Of a stretch of 64,000 nucleotides of DNA, positions 10,017 through 18,105 are shown piece by piece (the stretch's first letter is position 1; every line of letters begins with the position of its first letter). The notes under the pieces were generated by a model. It was not told the DNA's origin, searched no databases, and worked only from the letters and a program-made list of their open reading frames with translations. Origin of the DNA: Archaeoglobus sp. JdFR-27 (GTDB lineage Archaea; Halobacteriota; Archaeoglobi; Archaeoglobales; Archaeoglobaceae); contig MTMO01000002.1 in the NCBI GenBank assembly GCA_002011235.1, forward strand, positions 62,001 to 126,000, given 5' to 3'. A program made the translations under genes and the position numbers.

Positions 10017-10889
10017 CTAATATCTAAAGTCAACCGCTTCAGAATTTCCTGTTCTTTTTCTCGGCAGAGGGAAGAATTCAACCCCTGGATGCCTCTGCAT
10101 CATCGGTTGTGGATACATCTCCATGAGCTCATAAACCTCCGGTGGGACATCTGTTGTAACTTTGAGGCCAAGCTCCCTTGCAACTTCAACGGTTATGGGA
10201 TAATCGTGAGTCCATCTGCCTTCAGTGAGTATCTTTGCGATCTCTCTCGCCTTTTCCTCGCCCATTTTATCCTTAAGCAATTCATAAACAAAGTTCTGAA
10301 CTTGGTTGATGGATTTTTCGGCAAGATCTGCCAATATAAGTGTGCTATCGTCGATATCTTCCGGTTTCTTTTTTGAGACAGCATTCAGAATAGAGGGAGC
10401 TGGATAGTTCATTAACTGGGGATCCACAGGTCCAAGGACTGCATTTGGATCCATTATTATCTCATCTGCAGCTAAAGCAATCAGCGTTCCTCCACTCATT
10501 GAATAGTGAGGAACTATAACGGTGGTTTTTGCGGGGTGCTCTTTTATCGCCTTTGCAATTTGAGTTGAGGCAAGCACCAACCCGCCAGGAGTATGCAGAA
10601 TCAGGTCTATCGCCTGATCATCTGGAGTTCTTCTAATCGCTCTTAGAACCTGTTCAGAGTCCTCTACCGTTATAAAACGATAGAATGGAATGCCGAAAAG
10701 CCCAATACTCTCCTGACGGTGAATCATGGTTATAACATTCGAGTTCCTTTTTTCACCCATCTTTCCCATTAAAGCTTTCCTTGCCATCAAAAGCTGGCGA
10801 TGTTTTAGCTGTGGGCCTAAGATTAGATAAAACAGAAAGAAAAACCACAATATATTGAAGAACACCCCGGTCGTGTCTCCGTTGACCAT
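10017..10889 (-). CDS. Membrane-anchored ClpP-class serine protease (SDH/DUF114 family)
   Basis: The start was placed at ATG 10889 (290 residues) because TTTATTATAAAA lies 22-27 bases upstream and because the membrane helix GVFFNILWFFFLFYLI then sits at the N-terminus, as in relatives. The rest is a crotonase/ClpP-like fold with LHTPGGLVLAS and the nucleophile motif PHYSMSGGTLIALAAD, Ser within SMSGG being the likely catalytic serine, and MDPNAVLGPVDPQ following. Members of PF01972 are thought to be membrane-bound proteases or peptidases of archaea, facing the cytosol. It is divergent from the peptide transporter operon. Confidence 0.85.
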   Translation of the reverse strand: MVNGDTTGVFFNILWFFFLFYLILGPQLKHRQLLMARKALMGKMGEKRNSNVITMIHRQESIGLFGIPFYRFITVEDSEQVLRAIRRTPDDQAIDLILHTPGGLVLASTQIAKAIKEHPAKTTVIVPHYSMSGGTLIALAADEIIMDPNAVLGPVDPQLMNYPAPSILNAVSKKKPEDIDDSTLILADLAEKSINQVQNFVYELLKDKMGEEKAREIAKILTEGRWTHDYPITVEVARELGLKVTTDVPPEVYELMEMYPQPMMQRHPGVEFFPLPRKRTGNSEAVDFRY

Positions 10890-11002
10890 GAATATAAGAT
10901 AGAGTTTTATAATAAATACTTTGCCTTCGAAAACAGTAAGATTTATCATGACTTTTTTAAGTTTTATAGAATATCAAAATTAAACCTGACTCAAGATAAG
11001 AA

Positions 11003-11016
11003 AGTATTTAAATATG
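11003..11016 (+). promoter_or_regulatory. TATA box of peptide-binding protein gene
   Basis: AGTATTTAAATATG is a strong TATA element with an A/G-rich stretch just upstream as expected for a BRE. A start of transcription about 25 bases downstream would give a leader of about 20 bases carrying the GGAGGAG ribosome site at 11044-11050. Confidence 0.55.
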
Positions 11017-11056
11017 AAAGGGTATTGTAAACTCAAAAATTTTGGAGGAGAAAATA

Positions 11057-13186
11057 ATGAGAAGGGAATTGTTCTACTTGCTCGTGATAGGTCTTTTAGT
11101 GATTTCTTTGGCGGGCTGTGCACAGCAAGAGGTAAAGCCAACTCCAACACCTGCACCAACCCCAACTCCGACGCCAACAGCTACTCCAGTGGCAACTCCC
11201 ACACCGACACCAACTCCTATTCCTGCTACAGTAATCGAGACTGACACCTCCGTGGTGATAGTTGGTGAAAAGGGGAAAGTTGAGGCAGTTTCCATCCCAA
11301 CAAGTAAGAAGGTAATCAAGGTAAGCTATGTTGTCGATAAAGAGAACACAAAATCAATTGAGGATCTCATGGAGGCAGGACAGGGATTCGGAGCAATAAA
11401 TCCAGCTTTTTGGAGAAACACAGAGTTTGACGCCCTTGTCAAAGCAGCCAGATTCGAGACAAATCCCGAAATAAGAGCTGAGCTTTTCAAAGCCATGTAC
11501 ATAATCGCGAATAAAGAAGTGCCATTGCTTGTCTTTGGACAGAACAGAATGATGAGAACCTACTGGGACTGGGTTGAAGGAAGATACTACCATCCGACAT
11601 TTACCGAGAGATACGATCTCATTTGGGAAAAACCAAACGCTCCATCCGTTGATATCGGGATAAAGGAGTACAAGAACGATGCCAATACTCTTGTAATCGG
11701 TACAATAGGCTGGCCTGAATCGTTTGACCCAGCTACAACCTATGAAACATTCGGATGGGAAATATGGCACCAGATTGGTGATACACTCGTAACCTATTGG
11801 AAAGAGGAAACAGAGAAGGTTTCTCCGGATTTAGCTGTTGCTTGGGCGCACAATTCCGATGGTACAGAATGGTACTTTATCATAAGGGGCGATGTAGTTG
11901 CTTATGACCCATGGAATGATAAAACCTATCCGATCGATGCTACCGACGTTGCATTCAGCTTCTGGAGGGTGCAGAGAATAGGCCATAGTGTCAGCTGGAT
12001 GCTTGATTTCACAGACCTTAGCAAATCGGCTCCCTTAACGGAAGATGAATTCAAGGATATTCTTGCAAAGGGAGGAATATATGCTGAATACGGTGATAAA
12101 TCAGGAGAAGTAAAATCAATGGATGACTTGCTCTCAATGTTCGGCTACAGTGGTAAGACAGCAGGAGTTTACAAACTCGTTCTTCCTGAGCCATATGCAC
12201 CAATCTTGGGTGTGATAACGGATCCGTTCCTCTCAGTGTTGCCAATGGAATATCTGCTTGGAGACAAGTATGAAGAGGCTTTGGCCGCCTCAGACAACGG
12301 AAAGAACCCATCCGCATGGGAGGCGTACGTTAGCGAGGGCGAAGAAGATGCAACCCACCAGCTCATGCATCAGAAGCCTGTCTGCACCGGGCCATACTGT
12401 GTGGTTGACTACGAAGAGAACAGCTACATCGTTGCAAAGATGAATCCATACTACTGGGGCAAGGCTCTCTGGGATGAGATGTATGCTGATGCTTCAAAGG
12501 CAAAGCACGAAACCGTGATCTGGGTGATCAACAACGATGCCGTCTCGAGAATAAACCTCTTCCAGACCGGAACAGTCGATTTTGTCGCAGCTCCACCTGA
12601 AAGAATAAATGACGTCAAGGGACTTGAATTCCAGGGCTTCCATTCCGTCGTTAAAACGGATCTACTCCAGCCGGTTATAACCTACGGTGTATTCAACACC
12701 TATAAAGAACCATTCAACAACCCGAAGGTTAGAGAGGCCTTAGCTTATGCTGTACCATATGATCAGATAATACAGCAGGTGTATTCTGGAAACCTCGAAA
12801 GGAACTATGCAGCAATTCCAATCGGCTGGCCTGGGTATACGGAATACGGCATCGAAAAGTACACGTTTGATATGGCGAAGGCAAAACAGCTCATCCAGGA
12901 ATCTGGAATCGATCCAACCAAGTACTCAATCGACATCGCCTATAACACCGGAAACTCCGCAAGAGAGAAGATTTCAGCATTACTCCAGAACACATGGAGT
13001 CAGCTTGGATTCAAGTGTACTGTGACAAGTCTCGAATGGCCCGTGTATCTTAGCAAAGGTGAGCACGGACAGTACGACTACTACACCATCGGCTGGGTGC
13101 CTGACTATTTAGACACCGACAACTGGGTTGGACCTCTATACTACGGCGCAACTCAGTTCAAAGAAGTGAAGGTATTGACCGAGTAG
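11057..13186 (+). CDS. Peptide ABC transporter binding lipoprotein, apparently circularly permuted
   Basis: A 709-residue secreted lipoprotein starting at ATG 11057 behind GGAGGAG. Residues 1-22 are a signal peptide ending in the lipobox LAGC, followed by a Thr-Pro linker (about residues 28-57). The remainder is a family 5 solute-binding protein (SBP_bac_5), but the order is unusual. Residues 112-192 (GAINPAFWRNTEFDALVKAA through RYDLIWEK) match the part normally found at the very C-terminus (NPEFD..., ER..LY...I, ...GYYYNP). The normal N-terminal lobe begins only at about residue 207 (NDANTLVIGTIGWPESFDP), and the protein ends at GWVPDYLDTDNWVGPLYYG plus 13 residues, just where the missing segment would follow. 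It binds peptides for the permease encoded downstream. Confidence 0.85.
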   Translation: MRRELFYLLVIGLLVISLAGCAQQEVKPTPTPAPTPTPTPTATPVATPTPTPTPIPATVIETDTSVVIVGEKGKVEAVSIPTSKKVIKVSYVVDKENTKSIEDLMEAGQGFGAINPAFWRNTEFDALVKAARFETNPEIRAELFKAMYIIANKEVPLLVFGQNRMMRTYWDWVEGRYYHPTFTERYDLIWEKPNAPSVDIGIKEYKNDANTLVIGTIGWPESFDPATTYETFGWEIWHQIGDTLVTYWKEETEKVSPDLAVAWAHNSDGTEWYFIIRGDVVAYDPWNDKTYPIDATDVAFSFWRVQRIGHSVSWMLDFTDLSKSAPLTEDEFKDILAKGGIYAEYGDKSGEVKSMDDLLSMFGYSGKTAGVYKLVLPEPYAPILGVITDPFLSVLPMEYLLGDKYEEALAASDNGKNPSAWEAYVSEGEEDATHQLMHQKPVCTGPYCVVDYEENSYIVAKMNPYYWGKALWDEMYADASKAKHETVIWVINNDAVSRINLFQTGTVDFVAAPPERINDVKGLEFQGFHSVVKTDLLQPVITYGVFNTYKEPFNNPKVREALAYAVPYDQIIQQVYSGNLERNYAAIPIGWPGYTEYGIEKYTFDMAKAKQLIQESGIDPTKYSIDIAYNTGNSAREKISALLQNTWSQLGFKCTVTSLEWPVYLSKGEHGQYDYYTIGWVPDYLDTDNWVGPLYYGATQFKEVKVLTE

Positions 13187-13311: not shown

Positions 13312-14313
13312 GTGGCAGAGCTGAAGAAATTCCTAGTGAGGCGTATGCTAACATTTATACCAACAATAGTAGGTATAACCCTCATAGTTTTTGCAATTGC
13401 TTATCTTATACCAGCCGATCCTGCGAGAGCTTGGGCGGGTGGAGAGAAAGCAAGCCAGAAAGCAATTGAGATAATAAGGCAGAAATATCACATGGATGAA
13501 CCGTGGTACGACCAGTACATTTTCCTTGTTACAGGATTGCTAAAAAACGAGATCATCGATCCAAGAACTTCAAATCCAGTTCTTGATGATGTCGGTAAAA
13601 GATTCCCTGTTACGTTTCAACTTTCCCTATTTGCTTACTTTTTTGTTCTTTCAATAGGCATCCCTCTTGGCCTTGTATCGGCCCTTAAAAGAGACACAGT
13701 AATCGATACATTTGTGAGAATTTTCGCATTAATTGGAGTTTCAACGCCTGTTTTCTGGCTTGGATACATTCTCATTTACATCTTCTTCGTCCATGTGAGG
13801 ATCATAAATCTGGCAGGGGTGCCACCTTCTCCTGAAACGGTCATAACCCACATTCCGGTTATAGACTCGGTCTTAACAGGAAATTTGGAACTTTTCAAAC
13901 AACATGTTGCAAGATTCTGGCTCCCAGGATTCGTTTTGGGATTTATGGGGGCTGGAGTTGTAGCAAGATTTGTAAGAAACTCGTTTCTTGAGGCAATTGG
14001 AGGAGATTACATAGAGTTCTTAAAGGCAAAAGGAGTTCAGAAGCTTAGGATATACAGACATGCAATGAAAAACTCTCTTGTTCCAATTATCACCGTGCTT
14101 GGCTTGCAGTTCGGAGGTTTGCTCAGCGGAGCGCCGATAACCGAAACCGTATTTGGTTTGCCAGGAATCGGACTCTATGCAATCTTTTCAATTAGAACAC
14201 TCGACTTCCCAGCAATTGTTGCTGTTACTTTTATTTTTGCTCTAGTGTATGTTATAGCGAATTTAATAGTAGACATATTCTATGCGGTGGTAGATCCAAG
14301 AGTTAGATATTGA
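13312..14313 (+). CDS. dppB: Peptide ABC transporter permease, DppB type
   Basis: A 333-residue membrane protein starting at GTG after GAGGTGAGG. It has the DppB/OppB layout: an N-terminal helix (FIPTIVGITLIVFAIAYLIPADPA), a periplasmic-side loop of about 70 residues, and five more helices, with the ATPase-contacting EAA loop at FLEAIGGDYIEFLKAKGVQKLRIYRHAMKNSLVP near residue 225. It pairs with the DppC-type permease encoded 30 bases downstream to form the channel for di- or oligopeptides delivered by the lipoprotein. Substrate size cannot be read from the sequence. Confidence 0.92.
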   Translation: MAELKKFLVRRMLTFIPTIVGITLIVFAIAYLIPADPARAWAGGEKASQKAIEIIRQKYHMDEPWYDQYIFLVTGLLKNEIIDPRTSNPVLDDVGKRFPVTFQLSLFAYFFVLSIGIPLGLVSALKRDTVIDTFVRIFALIGVSTPVFWLGYILIYIFFVHVRIINLAGVPPSPETVITHIPVIDSVLTGNLELFKQHVARFWLPGFVLGFMGAGVVARFVRNSFLEAIGGDYIEFLKAKGVQKLRIYRHAMKNSLVPIITVLGLQFGGLLSGAPITETVFGLPGIGLYAIFSIRTLDFPAIVAVTFIFALVYVIANLIVDIFYAVVDPRVRY

Positions 14314-14343: not shown

Positions 14344-15483
14344 ATGCAAGAAATACATGAAGGACAGGAAGGACAAAAAACAGGAGAAGAGTATCAGAGA
14401 AGCATATTGGACAGGATTTCTGATTTCTTTATAGAGGTTCTGGTTTCACTTATCTCAACTGTCAAAAAAGGATGGCGTGAGAAAAATAGGTCGAGAGTTG
14501 CAGAATGGAAGCTGATGTTCTATGCTCTTAATCGCTCACCTCCTGGAGTTATAGGTCTTTTTCTCGTAACAATTTTCGTTTTCCTTGGGATCTTTGGACC
14601 TTTTCTTGCCCCTTATAAGTATAACTACTTCCCGATATTCGAGAACGGAGACACATATCTCTCACCACCCGGTCAATTTTTCCCTCTAGGGGCGGATCAC
14701 TTCGGTAGAGATTTAGTGAGTCTTCTCCTTCAGGGAGCAAGAACATCACTTGTCATCTCGATTATAGTTATAATCCTTGGTGTTCCTTTGGGAATCGTTC
14801 TTGGGCTTGTTGCTGGATACTTTGGTGGAAAAATCGATGAACTTATCATGCGTATTACCGATATGTTTCTCGCTTTTCCACCACTTATACTTGCAATAGC
14901 ATTTGCTGCTGTACTGCCAGAAAGAATATCATACCTCATAAACAATAATCCACTCCTTCAGCAGCTTCTGCTATGGCTTTTTGCCCTCGATACCAGAGAG
15001 GCAGGAAATCTAAGTAGACTTCTAGCTGTTATGATAGCAATGGCCATTGTCTGGTGGCCAGGCTATGCCAGAATTACAAGAGGATCTACCTTAACAGAGA
15101 GAGAATCCCTTTATGTGGAGTCTGCAAGGGCAATAGGGTTGTCTTCAGCTAAGATCATGGCAAAACACATTCTTCCAAACATAATTGGGCCAATTTTGGT
15201 ATATGTTACTCTTGATTTTGGAAGTGTTGTCCTGACCGAAGCTGGATTGAGCTTTCTTGGCCTCGGAGCAACACCACCCATCGCAGATTGGGGAAGAATA
15301 GTCTACGATGGTTCCCAGTTCTTTCCAAAAGCATGGTGGCTCATCATTTTTCCAGGTTCAATCGTGCTACTTGATGTTCTCGGCTGGAATTTGCTCGGTG
15401 ATTCCTTGAGAGATGTCTTGGATCCGAAACTCAGGAGAAGCATTGAATTTAAAGTAAAGCGCAAAAAAGGTGAAAAGACATGA
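14344..15483 (+). CDS. dppC: Peptide ABC transporter permease, DppC type
   Basis: A 379-residue inner-membrane subunit. It has a longer than usual hydrophilic N-terminus (about 70 residues, MQEIHEGQEGQKTGEEY...) before the first membrane helix VIGLFLVTIFVFLGIFGPFLAPY. The family signatures follow: PLGADHFGRDLVSLLLQGARTSL, the EAA loop YVESARAIGLSSAKIMAKHILPN and TEAGLSFLGLGATPPIADWG. An insertion around residues 195-220 lengthens the loop between helices. Its stop overlaps the next start as ATGA, so translation of the ATPase is coupled. Confidence 0.92.
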   Translation: MQEIHEGQEGQKTGEEYQRSILDRISDFFIEVLVSLISTVKKGWREKNRSRVAEWKLMFYALNRSPPGVIGLFLVTIFVFLGIFGPFLAPYKYNYFPIFENGDTYLSPPGQFFPLGADHFGRDLVSLLLQGARTSLVISIIVIILGVPLGIVLGLVAGYFGGKIDELIMRITDMFLAFPPLILAIAFAAVLPERISYLINNNPLLQQLLLWLFALDTREAGNLSRLLAVMIAMAIVWWPGYARITRGSTLTERESLYVESARAIGLSSAKIMAKHILPNIIGPILVYVTLDFGSVVLTEAGLSFLGLGATPPIADWGRIVYDGSQFFPKAWWLIIFPGSIVLLDVLGWNLLGDSLRDVLDPKLRRSIEFKVKRKKGEKT

Positions 15484-16457
15484 CAGATAAAGTTCTCGAG
15501 GTCAAAAACCTTACAGTCCATTTTTACACTTATGCAGGAGTGGTTAAAGCAATTGAAAATGTATCATTTGACGTTTACCGAGGAGAGACGTTTGCCCTTG
15601 TCGGTGAAACTGGGTGTGGAAAAAGCGTCACTGCAAGAGCTCTAACCCAGCTGATCGAATCTCCAGGGAGAATAGTTGAGGGGGAAGTTTACTACCATAA
15701 AAATGGTGAGAGTGTCGATTTACTCAAGCTCGAAGAAGAAGAGATAAGGAAATACAGGGGTAAAGAGATTGCATACATCTTTCAAGATCCTCAGTCATCC
15801 CTTGATCCTCTCTATTCTGTAGGATTTCAGGTCTCAGAGGCACTTTATGCCCATAATAAGGTGAAAAGCATAAAAGAAGGTATAAGAAAAGCTGTGGACA
15901 TCTTAAGAACTGTTTTAATGCCAGATCCTGAAAAGAGAGTGAGCAACTATCCACACGAGCTTAGTGGTGGGATGAAGCAGAGAGTAACAATAGGGATAGG
16001 GATTTCGAATGATCCGAAAATTCTAATAGCTGATGAACCCACGACAGCCCTCGACGTTACAGTTCAGGCTCAGATTCTCAATTTAATTAAGGAGATGAAG
16101 AGAAAATACGGGGCTACAGTCCTCTTAATCACCCATGACATGGGTGTCGTTGCAGATATGGCAGATAGAGTGGCGGTGATGTATGCTGGAAAGATAGTCG
16201 AGCTAGCAGATGTCTTCTCTATATTCAAGGAACCTATCCATCCTTACACAGAAGGGTTGCTAAAAGCCGTTCCGAATCCACTGATCAAGATAGAGAGACT
16301 TGAAACGATTCCCGGAACCGTCCCAAGCCTTATCAATCCACCGTCAGGATGTAGATTTAACCCAAGGTGTCCTCTGGCATCGCAGATTTGTAGGGCTAAG
16401 ATACCAGAACTTGAAGAGGTTAAAAATGGGCACTATGTTGCCTGCCATAACAGGTGA
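15480..16457 (+). CDS. dppD: Peptide ABC transporter ATPase, DppD type
   Basis: A 325-residue ABC ATPase with Walker A GETGCGKS, Q-loop FQDPQSSLDPL, signature ELSGGMKQRV, Walker B ILIADEPTTALD and H-loop THD. The C-terminal oligopeptide-transporter domain with the cysteine pattern GCRFNPRCPLASQIC follows, a region that binds an iron-sulfur cluster in related peptide importers. The start overlaps the dppC stop. It works as a heterodimer with the DppF-type ATPase, whose gene begins 4 bases after its stop. Confidence 0.93.
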   Translation: MTDKVLEVKNLTVHFYTYAGVVKAIENVSFDVYRGETFALVGETGCGKSVTARALTQLIESPGRIVEGEVYYHKNGESVDLLKLEEEEIRKYRGKEIAYIFQDPQSSLDPLYSVGFQVSEALYAHNKVKSIKEGIRKAVDILRTVLMPDPEKRVSNYPHELSGGMKQRVTIGIGISNDPKILIADEPTTALDVTVQAQILNLIKEMKRKYGATVLLITHDMGVVADMADRVAVMYAGKIVELADVFSIFKEPIHPYTEGLLKAVPNPLIKIERLETIPGTVPSLINPPSGCRFNPRCPLASQICRAKIPELEEVKNGHYVACHNR

Positions 16458-16461
16458 TACC

Positions 16462-17451
16462 ATGAATTTCGATTCAGGGTATTCAAAATCAAACTCCGAA
16501 CTTCTCATGGTTAAAAATCTGAAGAAGTACTTTCCTTTGAAGGGTTTGCTGTTTACTAAAGGTTACGTTAAAGCTGTTGATAACGTATCATTTGAAATCA
16601 AAAAAGGGGAAACCTTCGGATTGGTTGGAGAAAGCGGTTGTGGTAAAACGACCGTAGGCAGAACGATTCTAAGACTGATCGAACCAACAGACGGGCAAAT
16701 ACTGTATGATGGCAGAGATATAACCAAATTCAAGAAGAATGACATGGATTGGTTCAGGAGAAAAGCCCAGATAATGTTCCAAGATCCATATTCCTCACTC
16801 AATCCAAGACAGACAGTTTTCCAGATTGTTATGGAGCCAGTGAACCATCACGGAATTGACGTAGACGACCCAGAAAGGTTTGTCATTGATCTTCTGGAAA
16901 AAGTTGGTTTGAATGAAGGACACCTCTACCGCTATCCCCATGAGTTCAGCGGAGGACAGAGACAGAGGATAGCCCTAGCAAGAATCCTTTCTCTCAAACC
17001 CGAATTTGTCGTGCTTGACGAGCCAACCTCAGCCCTTGATGTCTCTGTTCAAGCAAACATCCTCAACACACTTAAAGACATCCAGAAAGAACTTAACCTG
17101 ACCTATCTTTTTATAAGCCATGATCTGGCAATTGTAAAGTATATGAGCCATAGATTAGGAGTGATGTACTTAGGAAAGCTTGTTGAAGTAGGAAATTCGG
17201 AAAGAATTTTTGAGGAGCCTTTACATCCATATACTAAAGCCCTCTTCTCTGCTATTCCAATTCCAGATCCGGAGATTGAAAAAAGAAAGGATAAGCTCGA
17301 AGTTAAAGGAGAGCCTCCGAGCCCGATAAATCCACCTTCTGGATGTAGATTTCATCCAAGGTGCCCATTCGCAAAGGAGATTTGCGGTCAGAAAGAACCT
17401 GCATTGGAAAAGGTTGAAAAAGACCATTTCGTTTCATGCTGGCTTTATTAA
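16462..17451 (+). CDS. dppF: Peptide ABC transporter ATPase, DppF type
   Basis: The start is ATG 16462 behind CAGGTGAT, giving 329 residues; a longer frame to 16300 would only overlap dppD. It has Walker A GESGCGKTT, Q-loop FQDPYSSLNPR, signature FSGGQRQRIALAR, Walker B FVVLDEPTSALDV and the H-loop SHD. The C-terminal cysteine motif GCRFHPRCPFAKEICGQKEP is present. KYFPLKGLLFTKGYVKAVDNVSF at the N-terminus is typical of the DppF/OppF subfamily. It is the last gene of the operon; a T-rich stretch follows. Confidence 0.93.
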   Translation: MNFDSGYSKSNSELLMVKNLKKYFPLKGLLFTKGYVKAVDNVSFEIKKGETFGLVGESGCGKTTVGRTILRLIEPTDGQILYDGRDITKFKKNDMDWFRRKAQIMFQDPYSSLNPRQTVFQIVMEPVNHHGIDVDDPERFVIDLLEKVGLNEGHLYRYPHEFSGGQRQRIALARILSLKPEFVVLDEPTSALDVSVQANILNTLKDIQKELNLTYLFISHDLAIVKYMSHRLGVMYLGKLVEVGNSERIFEEPLHPYTKALFSAIPIPDPEIEKRKDKLEVKGEPPSPINPPSGCRFHPRCPFAKEICGQKEPALEKVEKDHFVSCWLY

Positions 17452-17526: not shown

Positions 17527-18105
17527 TTAACTTTTTTCAGCTTTCATCTTAACAATCTCATCAAAAGCGTCCTTAAATCCTTGGTCAATCTTATAAAGCT
17601 TCTCATAGACCCTATCAGCTGGTTTCCCGTCTATGACCTTCAGTCTAAAATAAGCAACCTCACCAAGGGGAGTTGCAGAAGAAATTGCCTTAAGGATTTC
17701 CTCCGAATACGTTAACTCCCTTTGCAAACCCGATCTGGCTTCATCCTCCTTAATTTTTCTTGACCATCCAAAAGGGATAAAAAGCACTCTTAGGAGATTC
17801 CATCTAGCATAATACCTTCCTCTTTCTGATTTCACCGCTTTAAGCTGTGAATTCACCTTATCCAACGTTCCTAAAACTAACTCCTTAAATTCAGAGGGTT
17901 TAAGGAGTTTTTCGAGCTTATAGCTTTTTTCGTCTGTTACTTCAGTTTCTTCGCTTTCTTTCCCTTCCTTGCCTTCAATGGAGCTTCGTATGAGGCTGGC
18001 AATTCTAAACTCCTCACTTAACTTTTTAGTGAAATAGGCATCTATCCACAATTTTTTACCATTTTTTAGCCGGAAAGAGACAAACGGGACTAAAATGTAA
18101 TTCAT
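17527..18105 (-). CDS. Uncharacterised 192-residue protein
   Basis: I do not recognise this protein. It is soluble and charged, with a beta-rich start (MNYILVPFVSFRLKNGKKLWIDAYF), an acidic low-complexity run (EGKEGKESEETEV near residue 45) and a long helical second half (KELVLGTLDKVNSQLKAVKSERGRYYARW). It could be a protein-protein adaptor. It is convergent with the peptide transporter operon and stands alone. Confidence 0.55.
   Translation of the reverse strand: MNYILVPFVSFRLKNGKKLWIDAYFTKKLSEEFRIASLIRSSIEGKEGKESEETEVTDEKSYKLEKLLKPSEFKELVLGTLDKVNSQLKAVKSERGRYYARWNLLRVLFIPFGWSRKIKEDEARSGLQRELTYSEEILKAISSATPLGEVAYFRLKVIDGKPADRVYEKLYKIDQGFKDAFDEIVKMKAEKS

Follow-up and report, generated by a model that had tools for sequence, protein, structure and literature searches.

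The locus lies in a window of 64,000 nucleotides from Archaeoglobus sp. JdFR-27 (contig MTMO01000002.1, positions 62,001 to 126,000), to which all coordinates below refer. A gene on the + strand (11057..13186; 709 amino acids from the ATG) encodes a substrate-binding lipoprotein of family 5, read here as circularly permuted. Residues of this protein, called the window protein below, are counted from a TTG at 11042, so that the ATG at 11057 is residue 6 and the chain covers residues 6-714. The single frame 11042-13186 was open throughout, as had been stated in an earlier reading made without database searches (the sequence-only reading). ATG 11057 is probably the real start of the gene and is preceded by a GGAGG ribosome-binding site (11044..11048, +); a putative TATA-like box, TATTTAAATAT, stands at 11005..11015 (+), about 42 bases upstream of the ATG. 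Downstream on the same strand follow a DppB/OppB-type permease (13312..14313; Pfam BPD_transp_1 and BPD_transp_1_N), a DppC/OppC-type permease (14344..15483; BPD_transp_1 and OppC_N), a DppD/OppD-type ATPase (15480..16457; ABC_tran and oligo_HPY) and a DppF/OppF-type ATPase (16462..17451), the last an open reading frame with its start inferred from the sequence and syntenic in relatives. Permease and ATPase genes (dppBCDF) were also found downstream of the permuted gene in the relatives' loci examined.

The window protein begins with a signal peptide carrying the lipobox LAGC (residues 6-26, 11057..11119; Cys 26) and a Thr-Pro rich linker (residues 27-61, 11120..11224). These are followed by a small beta module of about 50 residues (residues 62-112, 11225..11377) and by the segment that is C-terminal in canonical family 5 binding proteins but displaced here (residues 113-196, 11378..11629). 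A short fusion linker from the old C-terminus to the old N-terminus (residues 197-210, 11630..11671) then leads into the N-lobe and the rest of the protein through the GW.PDY strand (residues 211-701, 11672..13144); within this part the codon of Asp 688 (13103..13105) was aligned with mature Asp 408 of DppA, which is D436 of the precursor. The chain ends in a new C-terminal tail (13145..13183, all on the + strand) with the strand FKEVKVLT, predicted to share a beta module with the new N-terminus (local pLDDT about 76-86). The sequence-only reading had placed the C segment at residues 112-192, the start of the N-lobe at about residue 207 and the end of the chain at GPLYYG. The C segment is indeed present, but the roughly 50 residues before it form an extra module; the canonical-profile match to the N-lobe begins slightly later, at 211, and the chain runs on for 12 residues beyond GPLYYG (ATQFKEVKVLTE).

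The window protein was compared with DppA (5f1q) by phmmer, and three stretches aligned in rotated order: query 213-310 with chain 27-125, 438-700 with 199-448, and 120-191 with 458-529. A canonical profile of 498 positions, based on 15 family 5 proteins of normal order from archaea, gave the same picture; residues 211-701 matched positions 10-413 once (225 bits), and residues 121-196 matched positions 421-496, also once (28.3 bits, independent E 3.5e-11). Each part thus occurs once and the order is rotated, and the earlier proposal that all parts are present once in rotated order was borne out. Relative to the canonical fold, the cut falls in the loop that connects the GW.PDY strand to the last helical segment, at about 422/430 of mature DppA, and the module 62-112 is extra relative to DppA, from which it is absent. 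The comparison with PF00496 (SBP_bac_5) that had been suggested gave a match in normal order (205.1 bits against a curated cut-off of 32.4; residues 259-704 to model 1-365 of 368), but this model ends just before the displaced segment and thus neither shows nor refutes the rotation. Of the refuting outcomes named in the sequence-only reading, none applies. The DppA equivalog NF043070 was missed (122 bits against a cut-off of 1005), and no NCBIfam cut-off was reached.

The same order was found in relatives. It was present in five other genomes of the same genus (84-96% identical), in G018, a Geoglobus-type genome of another genus (77% identical), and, with a span of at least about 650 residues, in 56 of 94 Thermococcaceae genomes, of which one has an in-frame TAA; many of these carriers are on long contigs or single chromosomes. 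Other Archaeoglobales thus carry the order, as the sequence-only reading had expected, but the expected scope was far too narrow, with permuted family 5 proteins also in Thermococcaceae, Halobacteria and alphaproteobacterial plasmids. A pattern-based scan of contigs gave only six loci, the whole-genome searches being far more sensitive. Substitutions between pairs of window-type genes were mostly synonymous (dN 0.02-0.09 against dS of at least 0.8; 0.016 and 0.81 in the comparison with L001), and the frame is under strong purifying selection.

Three Thermococcaceae genomes of Palaeococcus type (G061, G062 and G063) carry an ortholog of the window protein with a different cut, at 482/485. Its order is lipobox, 485-711, the module of about 61-112, the C segment, and the N-lobe up to 482. 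L006, a protein of this type, was 82-83% identical to the window-type L005 in both halves, and the same permease genes lie downstream as in the window type. The C-N fusion linker APSVD.GIK.YKND is common to both types, and the Palaeococcus-type proteins nest within the window-type clade in the trees; for these two reasons the simplest explanation is that a gene already rotated was rotated once more. In these relatives the module 62-112 lies between GATNFKELNV and the C segment, that is, between the canonical segments E and C, and the pieces that are split in the window protein are joined in L006, L083 and L084 as in canonical proteins. From this placement, the cut of the window protein would fall in the first loop of the small beta module, which would hold both new termini. 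The AlphaFold models of the window protein and of L006 agree locally on this module, with confident strands and both new termini in it, though they are otherwise poor. A natural circular permutation, as first proposed, is supported by the order of the segments, by the dozens of independent assemblies and by the relatives with the split pieces joined.

For the occurrence of such rotation elsewhere, the archaeal phyla of the window and of the Thermococcaceae were surveyed, plus plasmids. A profile of the C-to-N junction was searched in 394 genomes of the phylum and separated two classes, canonical proteins with about 160 bits over one half and permutants with 270-285 bits over the whole. Besides the window type, permutants were detected in G035, G028 and G274 (A. 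fulgidus type) and in G017. L048, of the A. fulgidus type, is a near-residue-perfect rotation of the canonical L033 of the same genus: residues 215-539 correspond to 39-363 (86% identity) and 49-211 to 363-525 (83%), with the cut between AGYSE and DNKLKLELWW. No synteny was found between the A. fulgidus-type gene and the canonical copies in G008 and G019, the neighbours being different. Weaker hits pointed to haloarchaeal permutants. Most of these share the A. fulgidus-type cut, at about profile position 333; two other cuts among them, near position 115 in L134 and near position 437 in L223, were confirmed pairwise against the canonical L229 (50/59%) and L219 (56/59%), respectively. There are at least five cut points in family 5 permutants. 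Of 117 Halobacteria genomes, 111 were matched at E 1e-40 or better by a full-length profile whose segments stand in rotated order, and most of the matches listed span nearly the whole profile. About 15 of 60 SBP_bac_5 matches in eight haloarchaeal genomes end at profile position 261-297, the mark of the cut at about 333, and so do five of the seven in G435. Detecting rotation by doubling each sequence worked in 19 of 115 cases (short linkers only), and the order of profile hits was used instead.

Permutants were also obtained from bacteria. When one haloarchaeal permutant was searched against plasmids by tblastn, single-piece, near-full-length matches were found in Nitratireductor, Microvirga, Maritalea, Ketogulonicigenium, Roseomonas and Neorhizobium, together with many haloarchaea. 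The annotated plasmid permutants that were examined precede permease and ATPase genes and are named plainly 'ABC transporter substrate-binding protein', with the rotation unremarked; the bacterial signal peptides that were read lack a lipobox, and the Pfam match to these proteins is split in two, with the main stretch ending at 284-285. The same tblastn with the window protein gave bacterial DppA-like proteins in normal order, with 80% of the query covered in one record only. It was observed in the tree that the bacterial permutants (L234-L239) lie inside the haloarchaeal clade with the cut at 333, to which loci of L142 type belong. This position suggests gene transfer between haloarchaea and Alphaproteobacteria, in either direction.

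The number of events was estimated from a careful tree of 77 de-rotated proteins, which is unrooted and in which the placement of L133 is unsure. Six changes between canonical and permuted order were counted (6-6 across sampled bootstrap trees), or seven with the cut types kept apart. There would thus have been about six independent permutations, an estimate that could shift slightly because of L133 and because the root was not inferred. Read as origins, the six changes would belong to the haloarchaeal-alphaproteobacterial clade, the A. fulgidus type, G017, L134, L223 and the window type with its re-permutation. A larger quick tree had eight changes, five of them forced by the starred branches. 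A single origin of the commonest cut, with all its carriers held together, was rejected (p-AU 2.4e-42).

Judging from the sequence data, the window protein is very probably a genuine, functional circular permutant that serves a complete ABC peptide importer of the Dpp/Opp type as its binding lipoprotein. Its chain would fold into the usual three-domain Venus-flytrap, with the displaced segment packing back in cis; we only infer an unchanged fold, since the AlphaFold models came from shallow alignments (8-11 sequences) and were poor, with a mean pLDDT of 43 for the window protein and 45 for the re-permuted L006. The old termini of the DppA fold are close together, and a rotation would therefore be structurally cheap. 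Each permutation probably began with a tandem duplication, after which the copies were fused in frame and trimmed while the signal peptide remained where it was; no tandem or doubled copy was found among the proteins examined, none of which was classed as 'odd' by the order of profile hits. The lipid anchor would now emerge at the E-C loop, on the side of the C-lobe, and no longer at the N-lobe. Peptides would be bound through their amino group at Asp 688 and then handed to DppBC. In DppA, D436 (precursor number) binds the dipeptide (PMC12136057). No arginine of the window protein was aligned with Arg 355 of DppA (R383 of the precursor), the residue that binds the carboxylate group of the dipeptide; since this residue is not conserved, the ligand may not be a dipeptide, and longer or other peptides are likely.

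It could be argued that the permutation was selected for moving the membrane anchor to another face of the protein and so changing the docking on the permease, a view we regard as unlikely. A change of docking had been raised as a possibility in the sequence-only reading. The archaeal cases seen do keep a secretion signal or lipobox at the new N-terminus, and a lipid anchor must in that case emerge at another loop. However, the alphaproteobacterial permutants have plain signal peptides, the archaeal L029 of G017 has a C-terminal membrane segment instead, the protein would be free to turn on linkers 30-60 residues long, and the scattered cut points are explained equally well if a tolerant fold is permuted neutrally; permutants that have no lipid anchor speak against altered docking as a general cause, and it is not needed. 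We would propose, as a tentative idea more than an expectation, that the family 5 fold rotates repeatedly at preferred cuts, second rotations included, and that the rotation is functionally used (through anchor position, docking or opening kinetics) and not neutral; rotation at such frequency may indicate a particular DNA route, for example tandem arrays or circular intermediates.

Three other explanations bear on the circular permutation itself. The displaced segment might be exchanged between two molecules to give a domain-swapped dimer, and the long flexible linker ahead of it makes such an exchange compatible with the sequence. Packing in cis is nevertheless the better fit, with only about 14 residues joining the C segment to the N-lobe and with L048 being almost without a linker (RYYLVYSEEQKDTITIGV); to our knowledge, domain swapping is not known for family 5 proteins, and we hold this explanation to be improbable. 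It is more improbable still that an N-terminal domain merely resembling the C segment was added and the true C-terminus shortened. The module 62-112, being extra relative to DppA, would agree with an addition, but the single C segment takes up the profile at 421, just where the main match stops (413), and the Palaeococcus-type relatives join both in one stretch with the module between them, on which grounds this reading was rejected. Finally, an assembly artefact in which the real gene is normal, or a collapsed tandem repeat opened wrongly, had been allowed for in the sequence-only reading and could be suspected from the draft state of the window genome (67 contigs) and from several relatives being MAGs, but it has next to no probability and is refuted for the family by the same cut in dozens of independently assembled genomes, many of them single chromosomes, by the open frame under strong purifying selection and by the lack of a doubled copy in any protein examined.

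Compared with known systems, the circular permutant of the window resembles DppA and SBP_bac_5 (PF00496, cluster C) in having all canonical segments once and an N-terminal secretion signal, in adjoining dppBCDF and in keeping the ligand Asp (mature D408 of DppA). It differs from DppA in its rotated order, in carrying an extra module, about 50 residues long, where the new termini lie and in having no equivalent of Arg 355. Natural permutants formed by duplication and fusion are known in saposin/swaposin, concanavalin A and DNA methyltransferases. As in those, the old termini are fused, the new ones lie in a loop and the segments occur once; unlike those, family 5 had several events within one family, five cut points, one second rotation, and one case in which canonical homologs are still about 85% identical. 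Most natural circular permutations are encountered as isolated ancient events. For use in biosensors, periplasmic binding proteins have been circularly permuted by engineering (for example PMC6335823); such work likewise relies on SBP folds tolerating new termini but is artificial and sensor-directed, unlike the natural family 5 permutants. No permuted chain was seen in the best 60 of 117 PDB matches, and no published description of a natural family 5 permutant was found in the open-access literature, so that a prior mention elsewhere is possible. Natural permutation and the fold family are already known; in that literature we found no description of the recurrence, of so many cut points, of a double rotation or of canonical and permuted pairs that are nearly identical.

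Within one genus, canonical and permuted homologs are nearly identical (83-86% between the A. fulgidus type and G008/G019), and one protein has been rotated a second time (the Palaeococcus type as compared with the window type). It thereby becomes testable how permutations arise, what they cost and whether the position of the chain ends and of the membrane anchor matters in an ABC importer. Routine annotation is blind to the order of segments in SBP_bac_5: the product name is the same for permutants, and their Pfam matches are either full or split.

Some minor observations were made alongside. Four window-type copies in Thermococcaceae (G068:C1:1818146-1820287, G075:C1:884000-888500, G139:C1:841293-841985 and G089:C1:410994-411844) have in-frame stops or two frames and are possibly decaying or split. 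The family 5 permutant L029 (G017:C2:103915-105387) starts with a plain signal and ends in a PGF-CTERM-like segment (PGFGVIAVIAGVMAATYLLRRRR), and it is probably archaeosortase-anchored at its new C-terminus. The divergent neighbour of the window gene (10017-10949, -) encodes a ClpP-like SDH-type serine proteinase (Pfam SDH_protease, E 4e-148), and this gene is conserved upstream of the permuted gene in the genomes of the same genus. Just after the operon, on the - strand (17527-18105), lies a gene for a 192-aa protein without a Pfam match; its position is kept in Archaeoglobus, Geoglobus-type and Palaeococcus-type loci (33-57% identity), and it is a possible partner of the importer.
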